Below are positions 9,186 to 29,998 of a stretch of 42,165 bases of DNA, one piece after another. The position numbers and the translations under genes were made by a program. The DNA is from Candidatus Altimarinota bacterium (GTDB lineage: Bacteria; Patescibacteriota; Gracilibacteria; BD1-5; UBA6164), in the NCBI GenBank assembly GCA_028692735.1, contig JAQUWS010000006.1:1-42165 (forward strand), in the 5' to 3' direction. The number at the start of each line of letters is the position of its first letter. The stretch's first letter is position 1. The notes below the pieces were generated by a model. It was not told the DNA's origin and made no database searches. It worked only from the letters and a program-made list of their open reading frames with translations.

Positions 9186-10415
9186 ATGCAAGAAGAAGAA
9201 AAACAAACATCAAATGAAGTACTTACTCCAGCAATGAGACAATACAAAGAATTAAAAGAAAAATACAGTGATGCAATTCTATTTTTTAGGATGTGAGATT
9301 TTTATGAGATGTTTTGAGAGGATGCATTAATTGCACACAATGTACTTGGAATAGCAATAACATCAAGAAATAAAAATGCAAAAAATCCAGATTTATTAGC
9401 TTGAATTCCATATCATGCAAAAGAAAAATACTTACCTAAACTTGTTGAAGCATGATATAAAGTAGCTGTAGCAGAACAAGTTTCAGATCCAAAATTAAAA
9501 TGAATTGTTGAAAGGGAAGTACAAAGAGTAGTAACACCAGCAACTTTGTATCTAGAATGAGAAGAATATGCAAAAGAAAATATATCAAATTATATTATTT
9601 CAATAGTTTATGATGAAACAAAATATGGTTTAAGTATTCTTGATTTCTGAACAAATAAATGGGTAACAGCAGAGTTTGATACTTTTGAGAAATTGTCATT
9701 ACAAATTTACAAAATTTCACCCAAAGAAGTCATCCTAGAAAAAAAACTTTTTTCTGATGAATCAATTAAAGAGTTGCTAAGTAAAAAATACTCATTGAAT
9801 ATCTACTATTTTGAATGAGAAAAAGAAAGTAAAGAAAAATTACTTTCACATTTTTGAGTTAAAAATCTTTCTTGATTTGGCTTAGATTGAAAACTAATGG
9901 CAATAAAGGCAAGTTCATTACTTCTTGAATACCTAGAATTAAACCAAAAATCAAGTTTGGATTTTTTACAAAGCTTATCTTATGAAACATTTTCAAATTA
10001 CTTAGATTTGGATGAGTCAACTATAAGAAATCTTGACTTAATCTACAACTTTGCAACGAAATCTCACAAAGTATGAACTCTTTTCTGAGTACTTGATGAT
10101 ACAAAAACAGCTATGTGAACTCGATACCTAAGAGAGGCTATATTAAAACCATTACAATCAAAAGAGGAAATAGATTCAAGGCTAGATATGGTTGAAGAGT
10201 TTTTAAATAATCCAGTTTTACTTGATAAAGTACAAAACCACCTAAAATACGTATCTGACATAGATGCTATACTAAACAGACTTGCATTAAACAGAAGCTG
10301 ACCAAAAGACCTACTAAACCTAAAAAAATCCCTAGAAGAAATTCTTGAAGTTTTCAAACTTATAGAACAAGAGGGAAGTGAGAAATTAAGGAAGTTATTA
10401 GTGGATAGTGAATAA
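9186..10415 (+). CDS. mutS: Truncated MutS: mismatch-recognition half only (409 aa)
   Basis: Clear DNA mismatch-repair MutS N terminus. Residues 13-50 include the mismatch-probing motif GDFYEMF (F39, E41), followed by the domain I segment AIT-SRNK and GIPYHA, the connector domain, and the start of the core (GTRYLREAILKPLQ near residue 310, then DIDAILNRLALNR). Full-length MutS is about 800-870 residues. This frame stops at 409, before the clamp, and lacks the whole Walker A/B ATPase and dimerisation part. No ATPase motif appears in any frame before holA. The last residues and the stop lie inside an inverted-repeat element (10407-10576). It may be a decayed gene or a DNA-binding remnant; normal repair activity is unlikely. 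Confidence 0.88.
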
Positions 10416-15365: not shown

Positions 15366-15554
15366 AATACTAAACTAGCAATAAATAAATTTAGATTATA
15401 TTATTTAAATTATATGAAATGTAAAATTAAGTTAAACAAAATACAATTATTAAAAGTCAAGTTTTAAATATACAATATATATGATAATTAATTGCATTAT
15501 AGCAATATATATAGTAACATTTAATTATTGTACTTTAATAATTATTTTCATATT
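15366..15554. other. Divergent intergenic region
   Basis: About 190 bp separate the divergent dus and pilin-like genes, so it must carry promoters in both directions. It is A/T-rich with several TATAAT-like words, but I could not choose a convincing promoter pair. Confidence 0.35.
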
Positions 15555-18500
15555 ATGTATATTAAATATCTTAAAAATCATAAAATAGCATTCACATTAG
15601 TAGAATTAATAGTAACGATAGTAATATTAGCAATACTATGAACAATAGCTTTTATAAGTTTTCAGTGATATAGTAAAAATGCAAGAGATACACAAAGAAT
15701 AGCAGATATAAATCATGTTGAAAAAAGTCTATGATTATTTGTAGTAAATACATGATTTTATCCAATCCCAGATAAATCAAAAGATATAACATATATGTGA
15801 TGAACAGCATGGATAGAATGAACATTGTGAGATACAGTATTAAAAAACATAGATAAAGTAAGTAAAACACCACTAGATCCATTAACATTAAATGAATATA
15901 CATATAGTATAACACCATCAAAGACAGAATATCAAATAGGAGCAATAAGTGAAGTATGATGATTAGCAATGATAAATAAAACATATGCGGCAGATTTAAG
16001 TAAAGCAGTAGCATATATAAAATGAAATTATAATGAAAAGATAACAAGAGTACATTCATGAAATACAAATTTGATACTTGCTATGCCGAGTATCGTAATA
16101 ACTGACATAACTGATCCAAAATTAGAAAATATATTACCAAAGAAAATATTGGTATTTAATAATTACTGAAATATTCCACATTCATATAATCCAGCATGAA
16201 CATTAACATGAGAATTAGACTATAATCCAACAAATCTAGTTGTATATAGTGGTACAACAATAGATTTAACATCAAATTCAGACAAAATAGCATTTGTAAC
16301 AAACTTACAAGATGCATATAGTGGAACATTTGTGGAAAGTAATGCATCATATACCGAGTTGATGAATATAGATCCAGGAAGTGACTCAAATAGTGCAATA
16401 AGGTTACTAAATAGTTACATATCAAATAATGTATGATGAATAACATGACTACAATCGTCAATAGTGTATAATGATTGTACATTAGATGGAGAAACAATAG
16501 TTCATGGACAAACAATAACAGCATATAGTGAAAATAGTATATTAGTATGAGCAAGTTATGAATGTACAGATAGAACAATAGAAAGAAGTTGTAATAATTG
16601 AATATTAAGTTGAGATGACTCATATATATATATAACATGTATAAAATGAACACCAACAAATTGTACATCAAGTGGAAGCTATATGTATAACTGACATACA
16701 TATAGTATCCCAGCGTTAAATCACTGAGCAAGTGCAATAGATGTGATATCATCAAATGTAACAGAAACAACATGAATATATACATATACATTGACAAGTG
16801 TAATATGTAATGATTGAAGCTTAATAAATCCAATAGAAAGTTGAACAACAGCAGTCGTGAGTTGTAATACATGATATATAACAAATGGAACAACATGTGT
16901 ATGAGAGACATATACAGTAACATTGAGTGCAAATGGATGAACAGCATGAACAACAAGTGTAACATCAACATATAATGAAAGTATGCCAATAATAACAGTA
17001 TTACCAACAAAAGTTTGATACACATTTAATTGATATTTTAGCGCAATAAGTGGTTGAACAAAGTATTATAATGCTGATTGAAGTAGTGCTATAAATTATC
17101 TATTGACATCATGAACTACTTTATATGCTCAGTGGACAGCAAATACATATACAGTAACATTGAGTGCAAATGGATGAACTGCAGGAACAGCAAGTGTAAC
17201 ATCAACATACAATACAAGTATGCCAACAATATCAGTATTACCGACAAGAACATGATATACATTTAACTGATACTATAGTGCAACAAGTTGATGAACAAAA
17301 TACTATAATTCAGATTGAAGTAGTGCAACAAGTTATTTATTGGCATCATGAACTACTTTATATGCTCAGTGGACTGCTAGTACATATATTGTAACATTTG
17401 ATGCAAACTGATGAACTTCATGAACAACAAGCATTACAGTTACATATTGAACAGTAATGCCACAATTACCTGTTCCACCTTCAAGAACTTGATATACATT
17501 CAATTGATATTTTGATTCGCAAAGTTGATGAACAAAATATTATAATGCAGATTGAAGTAGTGCAATAATATATGATTTAATATCAAATCCTACATTATAT
17601 GCACAATGGATAGCAAATACATATACTATAACATTTAATGCAAATTGATGAAGTTTATGAACAACAAGTGTAATAGCTACATATTGATTAGATATGCCAA
17701 TATTAACAACACCACCTTCAAGAACTTGATATACATTCAATTGATATTTTGATTCGCAAAGTTGATGAACAAAATATTATAATACTGATTGAAGTAGTGC
17801 TAATACATTTAATTTAACAACAACTACGATATTATATGCGCAATGGTTACCAAGTACATATACAGTAACATTTAACGCGAATTGATGAAGTTTATGAACA
17901 ACAAATGTAATAGCAACCTACTGATTATCAATGCCAACATTAGAAACTCTACCAACTTATGCTTGATATACATTTATGTGATATTATTCTGCAATAACTT
18001 GATGAATAAAATATTATAATGCTGATAATAGTAGTGCAACAATTTATAATTTAACATCAAACACAACATTATACGCACAATGGTGAGCAACAATTTCAGC
18101 ATGTACTTGAATATGACAAGTAAAAACAGCAAATACTACATACTGATCTTGTGATTCTTCAGATATTATTGTTTGTAGTTGAAATGCTGCATGATATATA
18201 ATAGCTGCATGTAATGTATGAACAAATATATCATGAACATGAGTAAATTCATATTGATACTATTTTCAATGGTGAAATAACTGATGAACTCCTTCTTGAA
18301 ATATGACACCATCAACAACAAGAGCAAATGTAGTATGATACTGACCATTAAATTATTACAGCAATACTACATTTATAGGATGAGCAAGTTTACCAAACCC
18401 TTATGATTGGGCTGCATTTCCACGGAATACAAATTTATGGTGAGATGTGACTAATACTTCTGAAGCAAGACAATGACCATGTATAAATTGATATCATATA

Positions 18501-18770
18501 CCATCAAATGCTGAATGGACTTGAATAGTATGATCTTGATGATGGTGATCAAATTGAATAACTATTAGTAATACACTTAAACTTCCAATGGCGTGAGGTC
18601 GTAACCGGACTAATGGTAATATGTATTATCTAGGTACTACAGGTTTGTATTGGTCTTCATCAATTCTTAGTGGAGCCTCATATTATGCAATTTTTAGCTC
18701 AACTATAATTGATTCTAGTTATCGTAATGATCGTGCATATGCACATAGTGTTAGATGTATTAAAAATTAA
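15555..18770 (+). CDS. Giant pilin-like surface protein with InlB-type repeats and FISUMP-like end (1071 aa)
   Basis: The N terminus is a type IV prepilin signal: short basic leader, then KIA-FTLVELIVTIVILAILG, with likely cleavage before Phe14 and the Glu that pilins use. The first ~150 residues look like a pseudopilin head with a calcium-loop-like linker. A Cys-containing region follows (about 290-450). Then come five tandem InlB/Listeria-Bacteroides-type repeats of exactly 79 residues (DNA 16908-18092), each with TYTVTxxANGG, RTGYTFNGYY, GGTKYYNADGSSA and TLYAQW. The last ~200 residues resemble FISUMP domains (GYHIPSNAEW, LKLPMAGGRN, GLYWSSS, AHSVRCI). No minor pilin or assembly gene is adjacent. 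Likely an adhesin displayed on or as part of type IV pili. Confidence 0.87.
16908..18092 (+). repeat. Five tandem 237-bp coding repeats
   Basis: The word ACATATAC or a close variant recurs at 16908, 17145, 17382, 17619 and 17856, a spacing of exactly 237 bp. Each unit encodes one InlB-type repeat. Units 1 and 2 are most alike, and units 3 and 4 share SRTGYTFNGYFDSQSGGTKY, which suggests recent duplication or homogenisation. Confidence 0.9.
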
Positions 18771-18847: not shown

Positions 18848-20860
18848 ATGAAAAAATACTACATACATACATTTTGATGTGCGATGAACACAGCAGATAG
18901 TGAAAAAATAAATATGATACTTACGCAATCATGATTTTTAAAAGTACAAAACTCAAAAGATGCAGATTTAGTTATTTTTAATACTTGTAGTGTAAGACAA
19001 AAATGAGAAGATAGAGTTTTTGGTCTTATAGATGATATAGTAAGAGATAATAAAAAGACAAAAACACACACAGTTGTTTGAATTACTTGATGTATGGTTA
19101 GAAAAACTTGAATTAATCAAAAGTACATAGAAGAAAAAAAAGAAAGAAATAGAGCAAAAAAAATAGAATTATTAAAAGATGAAAAGTGAATCTTTAATAA
19201 TGACGATAAACTATTTCCAAGGATAAAAGAACTAGATTTTACATTTAGAGTGGAAGAATTAAAATACTTACCATTGATTTTGTCTCATATATATGATGAA
19301 AAAATCTGACAAGATGATAAATATGATGATTATTTGAAAGCAAAACAATTAAGAGAAAATCCTTCATTAGCTTCAGTGATAATTCAAACTTGATGTGATA
19401 ATTATTGTACATATTGTATAGTACCATACACAAGATGAAAAGAATTTAGTAGAAGTAAGGACGATATAGTTTCAGATTGCAAAGAAGCAGTAAAAAACTG
19501 AGCCAAAGAAATCACTTTAGTCTGACAAAATGTAAATAGTTATTGAAAACAATTCGTAGATAAAAAACTTTGGAATGAAGAAAAATCAAACTGGAACAAA
19601 AAAGAAAAATTAAATATTTGAGTAGACCTAGATGATAGTTTAGTCAAAGTTTGGAACGATGAAATAATCTCAAATTACAACAAAAAATTTAATAAAAATT
19701 TAAAATTTGATGATATTATTACACATAGTTTTATTTGAGAAGAAGACTTAAAAAATGAATTTTTTGATTATTATTATAAAAACTTTTTTGATATAGATTT
19801 ATTTCATTGAGCTAAAGATGTTTTAGTAAAATTAAAACAAGAATGACATAATTTTTATGTGATAACATCAAGAGAAAAACAAGATATTGAATTAACATAC
19901 AAATACTTAAATAATAAATTTTGAGAAAACTTTTTTGAAAAAATTATTTTCACTAAAGAACAAGGAGAAGATAGAAAATGCGTTTTAGCAAACAAATATT
20001 TGATAGACTTAGTTATAGAAGACGCCCCTCATCATATAGATAATTATATAAAAAATACAAATTGTAAAATACTAGTTTTTTCTCAACCATGGAATAAAAA
20101 CATAAAAGAAGAAAATAATTTATATATCGTAAAATCTTGGCAAGATATATATGAAAAAATAAATAAAATTTATACTTTTAAATCCCCATTTAGAGAGTTA
20201 CTTGAAGAGATAAATAAAATTGATTGATTAGAAAGAATTAGGTTTACTTCAAGCAATCCACATGATATGACTCGTGATATACTTGATTCACATTTTGAAT
20301 TACCAAAAATGTGTAATTACTTGCATTTTGCACTACAATCATGAAGTAATGAAATACTTAAAAAAATGAATAGAAAACATTCTTATGAAGACTTTAAAAA
20401 ACAAGTAGATTATCTAAGATCAAAAGATCCATACTTTGCTATATCAACAGATATAATTGTATGATTTAGTTCTGAAACTGAAAAAAACTTTGATGATACT
20501 ATAAAAGCTTTTAAAGAATTAGAGTTTGATTTTGCTTACATTGCAAGATACAGCATAAGACCATGAACTATAGCTAGTAAATTATATCCTGATGATATTC
20601 CTGATGATATAAAAGCAAAAAGATGGCATAAATTAAATCAAGTACTACTCGAAACACTTACAAAAAGAAACAAGATGATGCTTTGAATTACACAAGAAGT
20701 ATTAATTTACTGAGAAAAAGACTGACAATTTTTTTGAAGAACAAAAAATTTCAAAGAAATATTTTTCAAAAAAAATCCCAAATACAAGATTTGAGATATG
20801 GTAAATGTTAAAATAACAAGCTTAGAAAGATGGGTTTTAAACTGAGAAATAATTAATTAA
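18848..20860 (+). CDS. miaB: MiaB tRNA methylthiotransferase with inserted HAD phosphatase-like domain (670 aa)
   Basis: MiaB adds a methylthio group to i6A37 of tRNA. The N-terminal UPF0004 domain has its three cluster cysteines (C11 in HTFGCAMN, C47 in NTCS, C82 in TGC). The radical-SAM motif CxxxCxxC is C183, C187, C190. ITLVGQNVNSYG (about 220) and, far downstream, LERIRFTSSNPHD and FALQSGS are the usual MiaB core; a TRAM-like domain ends the protein. Between them, residues about 255-443 are a complete HAD domain: GVDLDDS (D260, D262), ITSR (T340, S341), IEDAP (D392), then FSQPWN and VKSWQDI, as in NT5C-like 5'-nucleotidases. Usual MiaB is about 440-480 residues, so the insert explains the excess. 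A single open frame crosses both junctions. Confidence 0.9.
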
Positions 20861-22556: not shown

Positions 22557-23501
22557 ATGCTTATAGTTGTTTCTCCATTTTTAAAAAGCTTTGATGATAT
22601 ATGATTGACTTACTTTGTTCCAAAAGAATTAGAAAGTTATATAAAACTTGGTATTGTTGTTGATATCCCCCTACAAACACAGATAGTATCATGAGTTGTG
22701 CTAGATATGATAAATGAAACTAGCTTTGATAAAGACAAAATCAAACCTATTGTATCAATAAAATATGAAGAAGCCTTGCTTTATGATTACCAAATTAAAA
22801 CAATAAAATGGATTTCAAATTATTATTTTTGCAAGATTCATTCTTCACTTAACTTGTTTTTTCCAAGAAATTTAAAAGAAAAAATTGAAAAAATTAAACT
22901 AGATTTAAGCCCTAAAAAAAAGCTAGACTATATATTTAATTACAAAAAAACTCTAACAGAAAATCAACAAAATACAATCAACGAAATAGAAAATACTGAC
23001 AAAAAAATCATTTTTTATGGTATTACTGGCTCATGAAAAACAGAAGTTTATATAAATTTAGTAAAAAATTATCTAGACAAACAAAAGCAATCATTAATCC
23101 TAGTTCCAGAGATTATACTTAATAACCAAACATATGAAAGATTTAAAGAAATATTTTGAGATAATGTGCTTATGATAAATTCCTCAATTACAGAATCAAA
23201 AAAAACAAATAGTCGGATTGATATTTACAACAATAATGCGAAAATAATTATTTGAACTAGATCAAGTTTATTTTATCCTTATAAGGATTTATGACTGATA
23301 ATAGTAGATGAAGAACACGATTTGAGTTATAAATCAGAATCAACTCCAAGAATTGATACAAAAGAAGTTGTTTCATTTGTTGCAAATCAAAAAGATATAA
23401 AAACAATATTTGCATCATGAACACCAAGTATAAAAACAATATTTAAATGATTGAAAAATGAATATAAAATTATAAATTTACTTGATGAGTATAAAAATTA
23501 A
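22557..23501 (+). CDS. priA: Truncated PriA: N-terminal half of the primosomal helicase (314 aa)
   Basis: PriA restarts stalled replication forks. Here the N-terminal DNA-binding part and the first helicase lobe are present: Walker A YGITGSGKTEVY (K161), ILVPEI, the [23 protein letters not shown] block with DEEHD at 251-255, and motif III SGTPS (288-291). The frame then ends at NLLDEYKN. Full PriA is about 650-750 residues, so the zinc-binding insert and the second RecA lobe (motifs IV-VI) are missing, and nothing like them occurs before mscL. A helicase without its second lobe should not unwind DNA. Either a decayed gene or a fork-binding remnant; an assembly error is possible. Confidence 0.87.
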
Positions 23502-26113: not shown

Positions 26114-26146
26114 AAAGCAATTATATAGATAATTGCTTTTTAATTA
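26107..26146. terminator. Strong bidirectional terminator
   Basis: A perfect 18-bp stem (26107-26124 with 26129-26146) surrounds a 4-nt loop, with GC in mid-stem and A5/T5 runs. It separates the duplicated regulator fragment from the convergent 1284-codon gene and includes both stop codons. Confidence 0.92.
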
Positions 26147-29100
26147 TTTAAACATCATTTCCAAAATTCATCATAATGCTTTAATATCTCAATAAGGATC
26201 TCATCACTTCATTCAAGTAATAGCGTAAAAAATATGATTATATTTATCTTGAAATTCAAGATCAGAAATTTCATATTTTTTTCAATCAACATTTACAAAA
26301 ATTTGAGAGTTATTCAAATTAATACTCAGATCAAATCAATTAATCTTACTATTTCAATTATCAAATACATCATAAGAAACTTTTAGTAGTCAATTTTTGT
26401 TTTCTATGTCAGTAGTAGGTCTAAATTCATAGAAAGTATTTTTTCAAGATTCTCTTGATATTTTTATTATTTTAGCTTCATTATTCAAAAATTTTTCTCT
26501 TATTTCATTATCTATATCTCACATATAATCAATTCAAGAGTTTCTTAGCATTTTAGCAACATTTTTAATACTGACTTTTCATTTTAAAATTGACTCATAA
26601 TACGACTTAGAAATATATAGTTCTCAATTATTTCAATAATAATCAGTAAATTGAGTTTCTCAATCTGAAGTTTCAGAATTTTTTAATAAATCATCTTCAT
26701 TGCCAATAATCTTGAAATTATAAATATCATCAAATAATCAAACCAAAGCTTTTCTGTTTTTTGACGAAAAAGAATTAATTAATCAAGAAACTTCTTTTAC
26801 TGAATCTCAAAATTTATCAAGAGAACTTAATTCGCTTAATTTATATATATTTTCAGTTTCTCAGAGATTTTTAAATATTTTTTTCTCTAAAGATAATGTT
26901 TTTACTCATGAATTAATACTAACACTAGATGAAAAAAATGAATCTTCTTCTATAGAAATTCTTTTAAATCTTAATTCATCAATGTTTCATACTTTTATTT
27001 CTCTAATTATAAATTTAATAAATCATTTTTTTTCATTTTGATCTAGTCTATCAAATCAAATTACCTCAATATTTTTAAAACATTCAATCAATATTTTTGA
27101 TTCATCAATTCAAAGAGAATTTACATAATTTATAAGTGATTTATTCGATTCTTTTATTTTTTTACTTAATTCTTTTGGAGAATCTGTAAATAGATAAAAA
27201 TCATAATTTTTTGATACCAAATTTGCATCTGTTAACTTAGTTATTTCATTTCAAAAAGATAAGCTATATTCAAATATTTTTGTTGAATCATCAAATTTAG
27301 ATGAATTATCAGAAGAATATCATAATTTAAAATATCTGATTTTTTCAGCATTTTTTTCAATAAACTCAGCGTTTAAATTAAGCCAATCATCAAAGTATTT
27401 CAGATTTTCAGTTTTATCAAGCTTAGAAATTAGGTTTTTATCAAATTCTAGTCAAACCTTTTGTCATACACTATTAAGTTTTGGAACAATATTTTTAACT
27501 ATATCTCTATCTTTTTTTGTTTTTACAACTGATTGAAATACATTCTCATATGATGCAAAAGTTTCTCAACTTTCATTTGTTACATTCTGTCATAGATTTT
27601 CAGTAATTACAGTTGAAATTATAGGTAACAAAGTTCAAAAATTTAAGCTAGTTTCACTTTCTTTATCTCAGAAAACAAGACTTTTTGTTCACCAAGAAAT
27701 AGAGATTCATCATGTTTGTAAAATTTTTATGGTAAACCTATCTCATTTTCAAGATTTCTCAATATTGTTTATTCATACTCAAGCTCAACTAACTCAATTT
27801 TGATTTTCTACATTTAGTACAAATCATAATACATTTCAGTTTTTATCTTTTTTTATATTTTGAACATAAGAGAGTCTATTTATTACTTTTGTCCAATCAC
27901 AATATAATAAGTATTCAATTGCAGTATTTTCAGAAATCAAAATATCAAGTTTTGTAAATATATCTGTTCCAATTCATAAATTATCTTTATCTTTATCAAG
28001 AGATAATTTTGGTCATAATCTTCATCAAACACTCATTTTGATTATTGTATTTCATAAGAAATCTACATTGTTTTTATCTTTTAAATCAATAATATTTTTA
28101 GGTAATACAATTTTTCATCAATTAAAACTAAAACCTAAACTTAAAAATAACTCTTTATCTACCAAGTCTTTATTTGCTAAAGCGAATAATTTTAATGAAT
28201 TAATCGGTCCTAATGTAACAATATCTTCTTTTGTAATTGGTAAATTATATTTAATTCAAAGTTCTTGCATTATTTTTACTTTGTTTTTATCAGAAACTCA
28301 ATTAGTTTTAAACACATCAAACATTTTTATTATATCTTTTGAAATATTTCATGAAATATATTCTCAAGATGTTTCCAATCATTTTCAATGAGAAATTGAA
28401 GCTCAATATTGAGTATCTCAAACTTTTTTTTCTATTCATCAAGTTACAGAATATGTATTATTTGTTCATACATTAACTCATAAATTTAAATCAGTTCATC
28501 ATAATCAATCTCTAATATCAGAATAAACTGGAATAGAACTTCATTTTGTATCAAAAGACATTGTTCATCATAAAACTGTTCAAGGCTTAGAATATTTTTC
28601 TCAATCATTGCTAAGTTTTCATTTTATAACCTCACCTCAAAGCCTAACTCAAGCAACAGGGATCTCTCAACTTATTTTATCATATTTTCAATATACATTT
28701 GATTTTTCATCTAAATATCAATCACTATGAGTATAATCAACTGAAGGTCAATTATCTTTCATACTATATCATCATCAAATCATAGTTCATGTATTTTTTC
28801 AATCAGTTACAACTCAAACACTAGTAGACACATCTCAGTTATTTAAACTATGTTTAGTATCAAAACGTGATCAAGCTATTGCTTTTGTTTTTTTTCAATG
28901 ATTTTGAGCTCAAATCCTTCACTTTAAAGATCAATCTCAATTACCTCATAATTTTGCATTATAGATTTCATCCATATAAGTTCATATAGTTACATAATTT
29001 CAAGCTTTATCTAAATTATTTTTTCTTGAAGTAACTCTTACATCTCATGCATCATTAATTCAAAATCACACATTAACTCTCATTTCATCCTTTATTTTTT

Positions 29101-29998
29101 TAGTTGTTTGTGGATTATTTGTTATTCATCATTCTATATATCTTAAAAATCATCAAGCTTTTTCAGATAAAGCTTTTATATTTGATAATTTAAAATCCAC
29201 ATTTAAACTTCATTTAATTCAATATGTAAAATATACTAAATTTCAATCTCAAAAATCATAAAAAAATGGAACCATTATATCTTGAGGTGTTATATTTTGA
29301 TCTTGAGTTTCTTTTAAGTATAACGCTGATGTTGCAGCCATTGTAGCAATTATATATCTTTGTAATTCTCCCATAGACTTAGGCAATCCATCAAATACAG
29401 AAACAGCTATCATTTGAGCAGCATATTTATGAGACCATACATTTAGTATTCATCAACTATCACTTTGTACTTTTAACTCTTTTTTATCTCAAGAATACAT
29501 TAAACTTTCTGTATAATATGAATCCAAGAAGCTTTTAAAATTTTGAGGCAATTTTGATTCTACTGATTTTCAAAAATCAACAAATTTTCATAATAATTCT
29601 GATTCATGATAAACTTTTTTAGAATTATATGATTCAATAGAAGAATTGGTATTTTCATTTTTGTTAACAGACAAGTTTGATAAATTACCTTTAGTTTCCT
29701 TTTCTAAATCATCTAATTTTAAAGAATTTCAATTTCAAGCATTTTTTAAATCTTGAATTTTTTTTAATGCATTTTCAAGTCATACTAATCAAGAAACATC
29801 ATCTCTTTTTTTTATTAATCTTTCAAATCTAGAAATAAAAAGTTGATCTTCTCATCTATTTAAATCTATTTTTTTGTTATTTATTGTATTAATTATTTTT
29901 TGCATATCAAATTCTCTTAAATCAAATTTATCGATACTATTTGATTCTAAAACCTTATTTTGATTTTCATATAAATTCTCATTATTTTGATTTTGCAT
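26144..29998 (-). CDS. Very large glycine-rich protein of unknown function (1284 aa)
   Basis: One uninterrupted frame with TGA = Gly, from ATG 29998 to TAA 26144; I recognise no family. Residues 1-255 are polar and helical (RGEDQLFISRFERLIKKRDD, then ESELLGKFVDFGKSVES), with one hydrophobic stretch around RYIIATMAATSALYL. Residues about 258-550 are Gly/Ser/Asn/Thr-rich with alternating short strands (GTMIGGGYSMKDNG, GEVIKGKLSNDG, DLNLGVNVGTNN, YGASISHGKG), like a beta-barrel or beta-solenoid. The remaining 730 residues mix helical and beta segments without repeats. No N-terminal signal peptide is visible, so export by Sec is not evident. It is the largest gene in the window, preceded by short tandem repeats and divergent from tmRNA. 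Confidence 0.8.

Follow-up and report, generated by a model that had tools for sequence, protein, structure and literature searches.

The gene at positions 18848-20860 of the analysed stretch (the window, 42,165 nucleotides of contig JAQUWS010000006.1 from Candidatus Altimarinota bacterium) raises the question of what a complete phosphatase-like domain is doing inside a tRNA-modifying enzyme. An earlier note had read this gene as a MiaB radical-SAM enzyme with an entire HAD domain nested in frame. Here we examine whether that architecture is real, how the domain came to its position and what the fused protein may do.

Architecture of the fused gene

The 670-codon frame is open under NCBI table 25, in which its 28 TGA codons are read as glycine, and it is broken when read with table 11. 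The features of the encoded protein are as follows, all on the + strand:

18848..20860, +, fused gene, MiaB with nested NT5C/HAD domain, 670 aa, single open frame in genetic code 25
18854..19111, +, UPF0004 (MTTase) N-terminal domain, residues 3-88 (Pfam 5.7e-23), carrying the auxiliary-cluster cysteines C11, C47 and C82
19394..19417, +, radical-SAM motif CxxxCxxC, residues 183-190 (C183, C187, C190)
19523..19549, +, GQNVNSYGK motif, residues 226-234, ending the barrel strand that precedes the loop
19571..19594, +, loop extension WNxEKSxW, W242 to W249, both of these Trp being invariant among the 33 MiaBs aligned from the order
19601..20176, +, inserted NT5C-type HAD domain, residues 252-443, 192 residues (PF06941; empty site in G001-G004; fold match)
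19625..19633, +, HAD motif I, D260-L-D262, both Asp invariant (14/14)
19865..19873, +, HAD motif II, T340-S-R, with T in 13/14 and S in 1/14
19976..19978, +, HAD motif III Lys, K377, invariant in 14/14 inserts and 86/86 stand-alone relatives
20018..20023, +, HAD motif IV, E391-D392, D392 invariant (14/14), position 391 being D or E
20183..20506, +, second half of the radical-SAM barrel, residues 446-553 (Pfam)
20678..20854, +, TRAM domain, residues 611-669 (Pfam 4.8e-9)

The Radical_SAM match (4.9e-25) is split into two stretches. UPF0004, the barrel and TRAM are all found by Pfam, in agreement with the earlier reading. The cysteines and HAD residues named in that reading (C11, C47, C82, C183, C187, C190, D260, D262, T340 and D392) were all correctly identified, and K377 completes the HAD set.

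With regard to the type of methylthiotransferase, the protein scored 390 bits against the TIGR00089 subfamily model (cut-off 251), and its best NCBIfam equivalog was MiaB (TIGR01574), for which it reached 353.5 against a cut-off of 355.3; the unfused MiaBs from two genomes of the same genus scored 355.6 and 360.3, above that cut-off. It fell far under the respective NCBIfam cut-offs for MtaB and RimO. The top Foldseek match was 7mjz (E 2.3e-34). All six MiaB cluster cysteines are conserved in the fusions, with C11, C47 and C82 invariant in 14/14. The order UPF0004-barrel-TRAM and the six cysteines are thus shared with the characterised tRNA-2-methylthio-N6-dimethylallyladenosine synthase MiaB (TIGR01574; 7mjv/7mjz), to which the window protein adds a 192-residue HAD domain after the GQNVNSYG strand. 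MiaA is encoded in the genome of the window (PF01715, E 1.3e-76) and in 11 of the other 13 genomes with the fusion. With UPF0004, the radical-SAM barrel, TRAM and MiaA all found, methylthiolation is the predicted activity of the MiaB part.

A chimeric contig, a misassembly or an artefact of reading TGA as glycine can for practical purposes be dismissed as the source of this architecture. The draft genome is indeed fragmented (98 contigs), and the frame is open under code 25 only. However, the same architecture recurs on separate contigs in fourteen genomes, and TGA is the main glycine codon all along the gene.

The inserted HAD domain

The insert was originally placed at about residues 255-443; the domain stands, and its borders are better drawn at 252-443, as judged by alignment with the empty sites, between WNxEKSxWN and KSPFRELL. 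Taken by itself, the insert matches PF06941 (NT5C) with an E-value of 3.1e-12 and 47.2 bits (cut-off 24.8), which bears out its suggested NT5C-like nature, and four further inserts (L007, L010, L011 and L012) likewise exceed this cut-off. D260, D262, T/S340, R342, K377 and D392 are kept across 14/14 inserts, despite an identity to the window copy of just 40-45% for most of them.

The structure predicted for the HAD domain alone reached a pLDDT of 90.7 and a pTM of 0.87. In the model of the full-length protein (pTM 0.59), short linkers flank the domain on both sides, as judged by secondary structure. The best fold matches were bacterial and human deoxyribonucleotidases (3bwv, Z 17.9, rmsd 2.5, 166 aligned; 4mwo, Z 16.7, rmsd 3.1, 179 aligned), at about 20% identity to solved structures. 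HADs with different substrates scored nearly as high (Z about 15), and the fold therefore does not fix the substrate. N416 and W431 are conserved as in NT5C-type deoxyribonucleotidases, so that the insert has the fold, the four HAD motifs and these two residues in common with the 5'(3')-deoxyribonucleotidases (PF06941; 3bwv, 4mwo, 1z4i). It differs from them in being nested within another enzyme and in having 16 near-invariant positions of its own, which occur in less than 25% of 86 other NT5C-like proteins. These positions often lie in the cap region or beside motifs III and IV (V268, Y277, K280, G297, L301, D375, H395, Y400). Such a pattern suggests a specialised, selected enzyme with a specialised pocket or surface; as stand-alone NT5C proteins seldom have these residues, the insert may act on something other than dNMP.

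The HAD part is also under purifying selection: dN/dS was 0.058 for HAD and 0.084 for MiaB in L065-L067, the sole close pair in which both parts are unsaturated, the divergence of other pairs being too high for a meaningful ratio. In a genome of the same family (G035), one 399-aa frame (L083) fuses an HD_3/YfbR-like deoxynucleotidase domain to an NT5C HAD domain. This second fusion points to nucleotides and fits a role in nucleotide metabolism.

Distribution of the fusion and empty sites

Of the 77 genomes of the order searched with a profile built from the inserts, 14 carry the same HAD domain in the same loop of MiaB. Ten of these come from two genera that group together, which leaves fewer than 14 independent cases. 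The strong matches in these 77 genomes all reached at least 249 bits and lay inside MiaB, whereas the remaining matches scored about 90 bits or less and lay outside MiaB. The fusion was present in all eight g13 genomes surveyed. Among 380 genomes drawn from the phylum there was no strong match except the window's own, and among 84,980 species genomes the strong matches were Gracilibacteria carrying the same fusion, other matches being stand-alone NT5C proteins of Bacillota, Patescibacteria, archaea and others. A pattern survey of other orders, in which 11 of 29 MiaB loci could be read, found no nested HAD in the readable loops.

The distribution is patchy even at close range. Four congeners (G001-G004) have a MiaB loop without HAD; in G004, whose MiaB is 78% identical over the N-terminal part, the counterpart of residue 251 is followed within a few bases by that of residue 444. 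The relatives thus show one of two states, the nested form or a HAD-free loop, and MiaB and HAD as separate neighbouring genes, the arrangement that would have spoken against a true fusion, was not seen. The suggestion that the loop after GQNVNSYG would tolerate the insertion is likewise supported. No described MiaB into which a phosphatase is inserted or fused came up in the literature searched, and the earlier note likewise knew of no such protein.

The loop as an insertion hotspot

The same MiaB loop, which is exposed, has received other sequences as well. In three genomes (G037, G055 and G054; loci L035, L037 and L038) it holds a nuclease-like domain of the DUF559 family (E-values between 1.5e-29 and 5.9e-34, whole proteins). 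Inverted repeats surround the insert of L038 (34-base arms, 74% complementary) and that of L037 (16 bases, 88% complementary); flanking inverted repeats were looked for and not found at L035. Six more genomes have short repeat-like additional peptides in the loop (L015, L016, L017, L021, L025 and L050), of which that of L021 is an imperfect palindrome, and a similar-looking insert is seen in the MiaB loop of L236, outside the order. The loop is thus an insertion hotspot in the order and seems to be a place at which additional domains naturally settle.

DUF559 is common in the order, with as many as 15 copies in a single genome. The fifteen matches of G033 are spread over many contigs, several with near-identical scores, which suggests an expanded family of repeated genes.

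In-frame palindromic elements are known from genes of Wolbachia (PMC4224334). The Wolbachia/Rickettsia elements (WPE-like inserts in addA, addB and priA) illustrate that in-frame repeats can be tolerated within conserved genes (PMC4224334), and they resemble the short and the inverted-repeat-flanked inserts in the MiaB loop of the related genomes. The HAD insert differs from them in being a conserved enzyme domain, and no flanking inverted arms were found at its junctions.

Origin and spread of the insert

To trace the insert, its phylogeny was compared with that of the host protein. In a MiaB tree from which the insert columns had been excluded, the HAD-bearing rows formed no clade and at least five changes were needed; a single clade was rejected (AU p 0.00036). 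The inserts themselves formed one clade (support 100/99) against 49 stand-alone proteins, and were distant from every stand-alone NT5C found. Inserts in one clade on MiaB backbones that are not a clade indicate a single origin of the domain, followed either by transfer between MiaB genes or by repeated loss.

Between these two courses we lean towards transfer, given the count of about 16 losses against 5 gains on the MiaB tree and the common tip of the empty loops of family f1. An insertion ancestral to the order that was cleanly lost many times is possible though doubtful. In its favour, the insert tree does not reject arrangements compatible with vertical descent (AU p 0.24-0.27). However, besides the number of losses it would require, the f1 empty loops mostly share the tip [GN][IL]GKSPF, a sequence that is unlikely to be recreated by one clean deletion after another, and the insert of G046 groups with that of the window, yet the MiaB of G046 is firmly native to family f2. 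The genome of G044 belongs to family f2, but its MiaB is placed among those of family f1; this may reflect gene transfer or a contaminating contig.

Several other sources were considered for the insert and rejected. A phage origin had no support, viral contigs yielding only two matches of 24% identity and phage records one of 28%. The composition of the window's insert resembles that of the host gene (GC 0.20, glycine mostly TGA), which argues against a recent foreign origin. An intein was also discarded, because what is inserted is an entire HAD enzyme and the family search matched no splicing-domain family.

Function of the fused protein

On balance, with moderate confidence, we favour a bifunctional protein in which a working MiaB methylthiotransferase carries a tethered but chemically uncoupled NT5C-type phosphatase acting on a small 5'-nucleotide; both activities, the type of substrate and the lack of chemical coupling are inferred. 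The MiaB part, with both Fe-S sites, barrel and TRAM intact, would most likely 2-methylthiolate tRNA at i6A37, as MiaB usually does. The HAD domain would fold independently in the loop after the GQNVNSYG strand, held by its short linkers, and would most likely remove the phosphate from a small 5'-nucleotide (dNMP- or NMP-like) by the Mg2+-dependent HAD mechanism with an Asp nucleophile. Having arisen once, the insert would have reached, or persisted in, several lineages of MiaB, since in this order the loop takes up insertions and the barrel stays undisturbed.

Covalent joining of a HAD phosphatase to a second enzyme has a parallel in MtlD, the bifunctional mannitol-1-phosphate dehydrogenase/HAD phosphatase (7ocn, 7ocs), which was among the fold matches. 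In MtlD the HAD is N-terminal (chain range about 2-228), whereas the window protein has it nested in a loop; its two parts have no known substrate in common.

Loops after the strands of TIM-type barrels lie on the active-site face. The position of the insertion, its short linkers and the insert-specific invariant residues, many of them in the cap or beside motifs III and IV and thus suggestive of a dedicated substrate or docking surface, could therefore be taken to mean that HAD acts in the MiaB reaction itself, by gating or tuning tRNA access, by sensing a nucleotide or by dephosphorylating a tRNA end or damaged tRNA, so that the two activities are coupled. We consider this unlikely. Close congeners and most of the order manage without HAD, unrelated DUF559 domains occupy the same loop, which means that position alone is no argument for coupling, and the full-length model (pTM 0.59) does not resolve the interdomain placement. 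The earlier note had also named 5'-deoxyadenosine as a possible substrate. As this by-product has no phosphate group that a HAD phosphatase could cleave off, the proposal is not supported and was rejected on chemical grounds.

We give equally little credence to a reading in which HAD is a passenger that the protein tolerates, selfish or neutral, which spread via a permissive loop with no benefit from its enzymatic activity. The hotspot would suit such a passenger, given its short repeat-like peptides and its three DUF559 domains, two of which have inverted-repeat arms, as would HAD-bearing MiaB backbones that form no clade (AU p 0.00036). On the other hand, catalytic residues kept in 14/14 inserts despite their divergence, the low dN/dS and retention in every g13 genome surveyed all speak against it. 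The bifunctional, uncoupled protein remains our preferred reading.

Other genes in the window

Four further genes of the window were also noted. At 9186-10415 (+) lies a MutS of 409 aa with domains I-III only, no ATPase domain being found; the short form is conserved as frames of 400-441 aa in six relatives, and in the window it is followed by a DNA polymerase III delta-like gene. A PriA-like protein of 314 aa at 22557-23501 (+) has only the 3'BD and DEAD domains, and frames of 317-321 aa occur in four relatives. The product of the frame at 15528-18770 (+), 1080 aa long, has an N-terminus of the prepilin type and contains Listeria-Bacteroides repeats, with matches in five stretches. At 26144-29998 (-) a 1284-aa frame is open in code 25 and has no Pfam match.

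Implications

The fused protein is a new domain architecture assembled from known families and no new kind of enzyme. One could extend the picture to a loop that is a standing landing site in Gracilibacteria and nearby Patescibacteria, for nuclease elements with inverted-repeat arms, short palindromic repeats and one phosphatase domain; the latter would then have turned into a second, conserved active site, travelled between the MiaB genes of separate families and coupled tRNA modification to a phosphatase step. Taken as a whole, we regard this scenario as a speculation with rather long odds against it.

For annotation, it should be underlined that MiaB in these organisms can be 670 residues long and is at risk of being named after the wrong domain. 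More generally, the fused gene, set beside the empty sites of congeners, is a clear example of an entire enzyme residing in a loop of an enzyme of the translation machinery and kept there under selection. It points to a route to nested domains in which DNA enters a permissive loop in frame and, seldom, a useful domain stays. The same loop has received a nuclease-like domain and repeat peptides in relatives, and thus amounts to a natural experiment on the origin of nested-domain enzymes.
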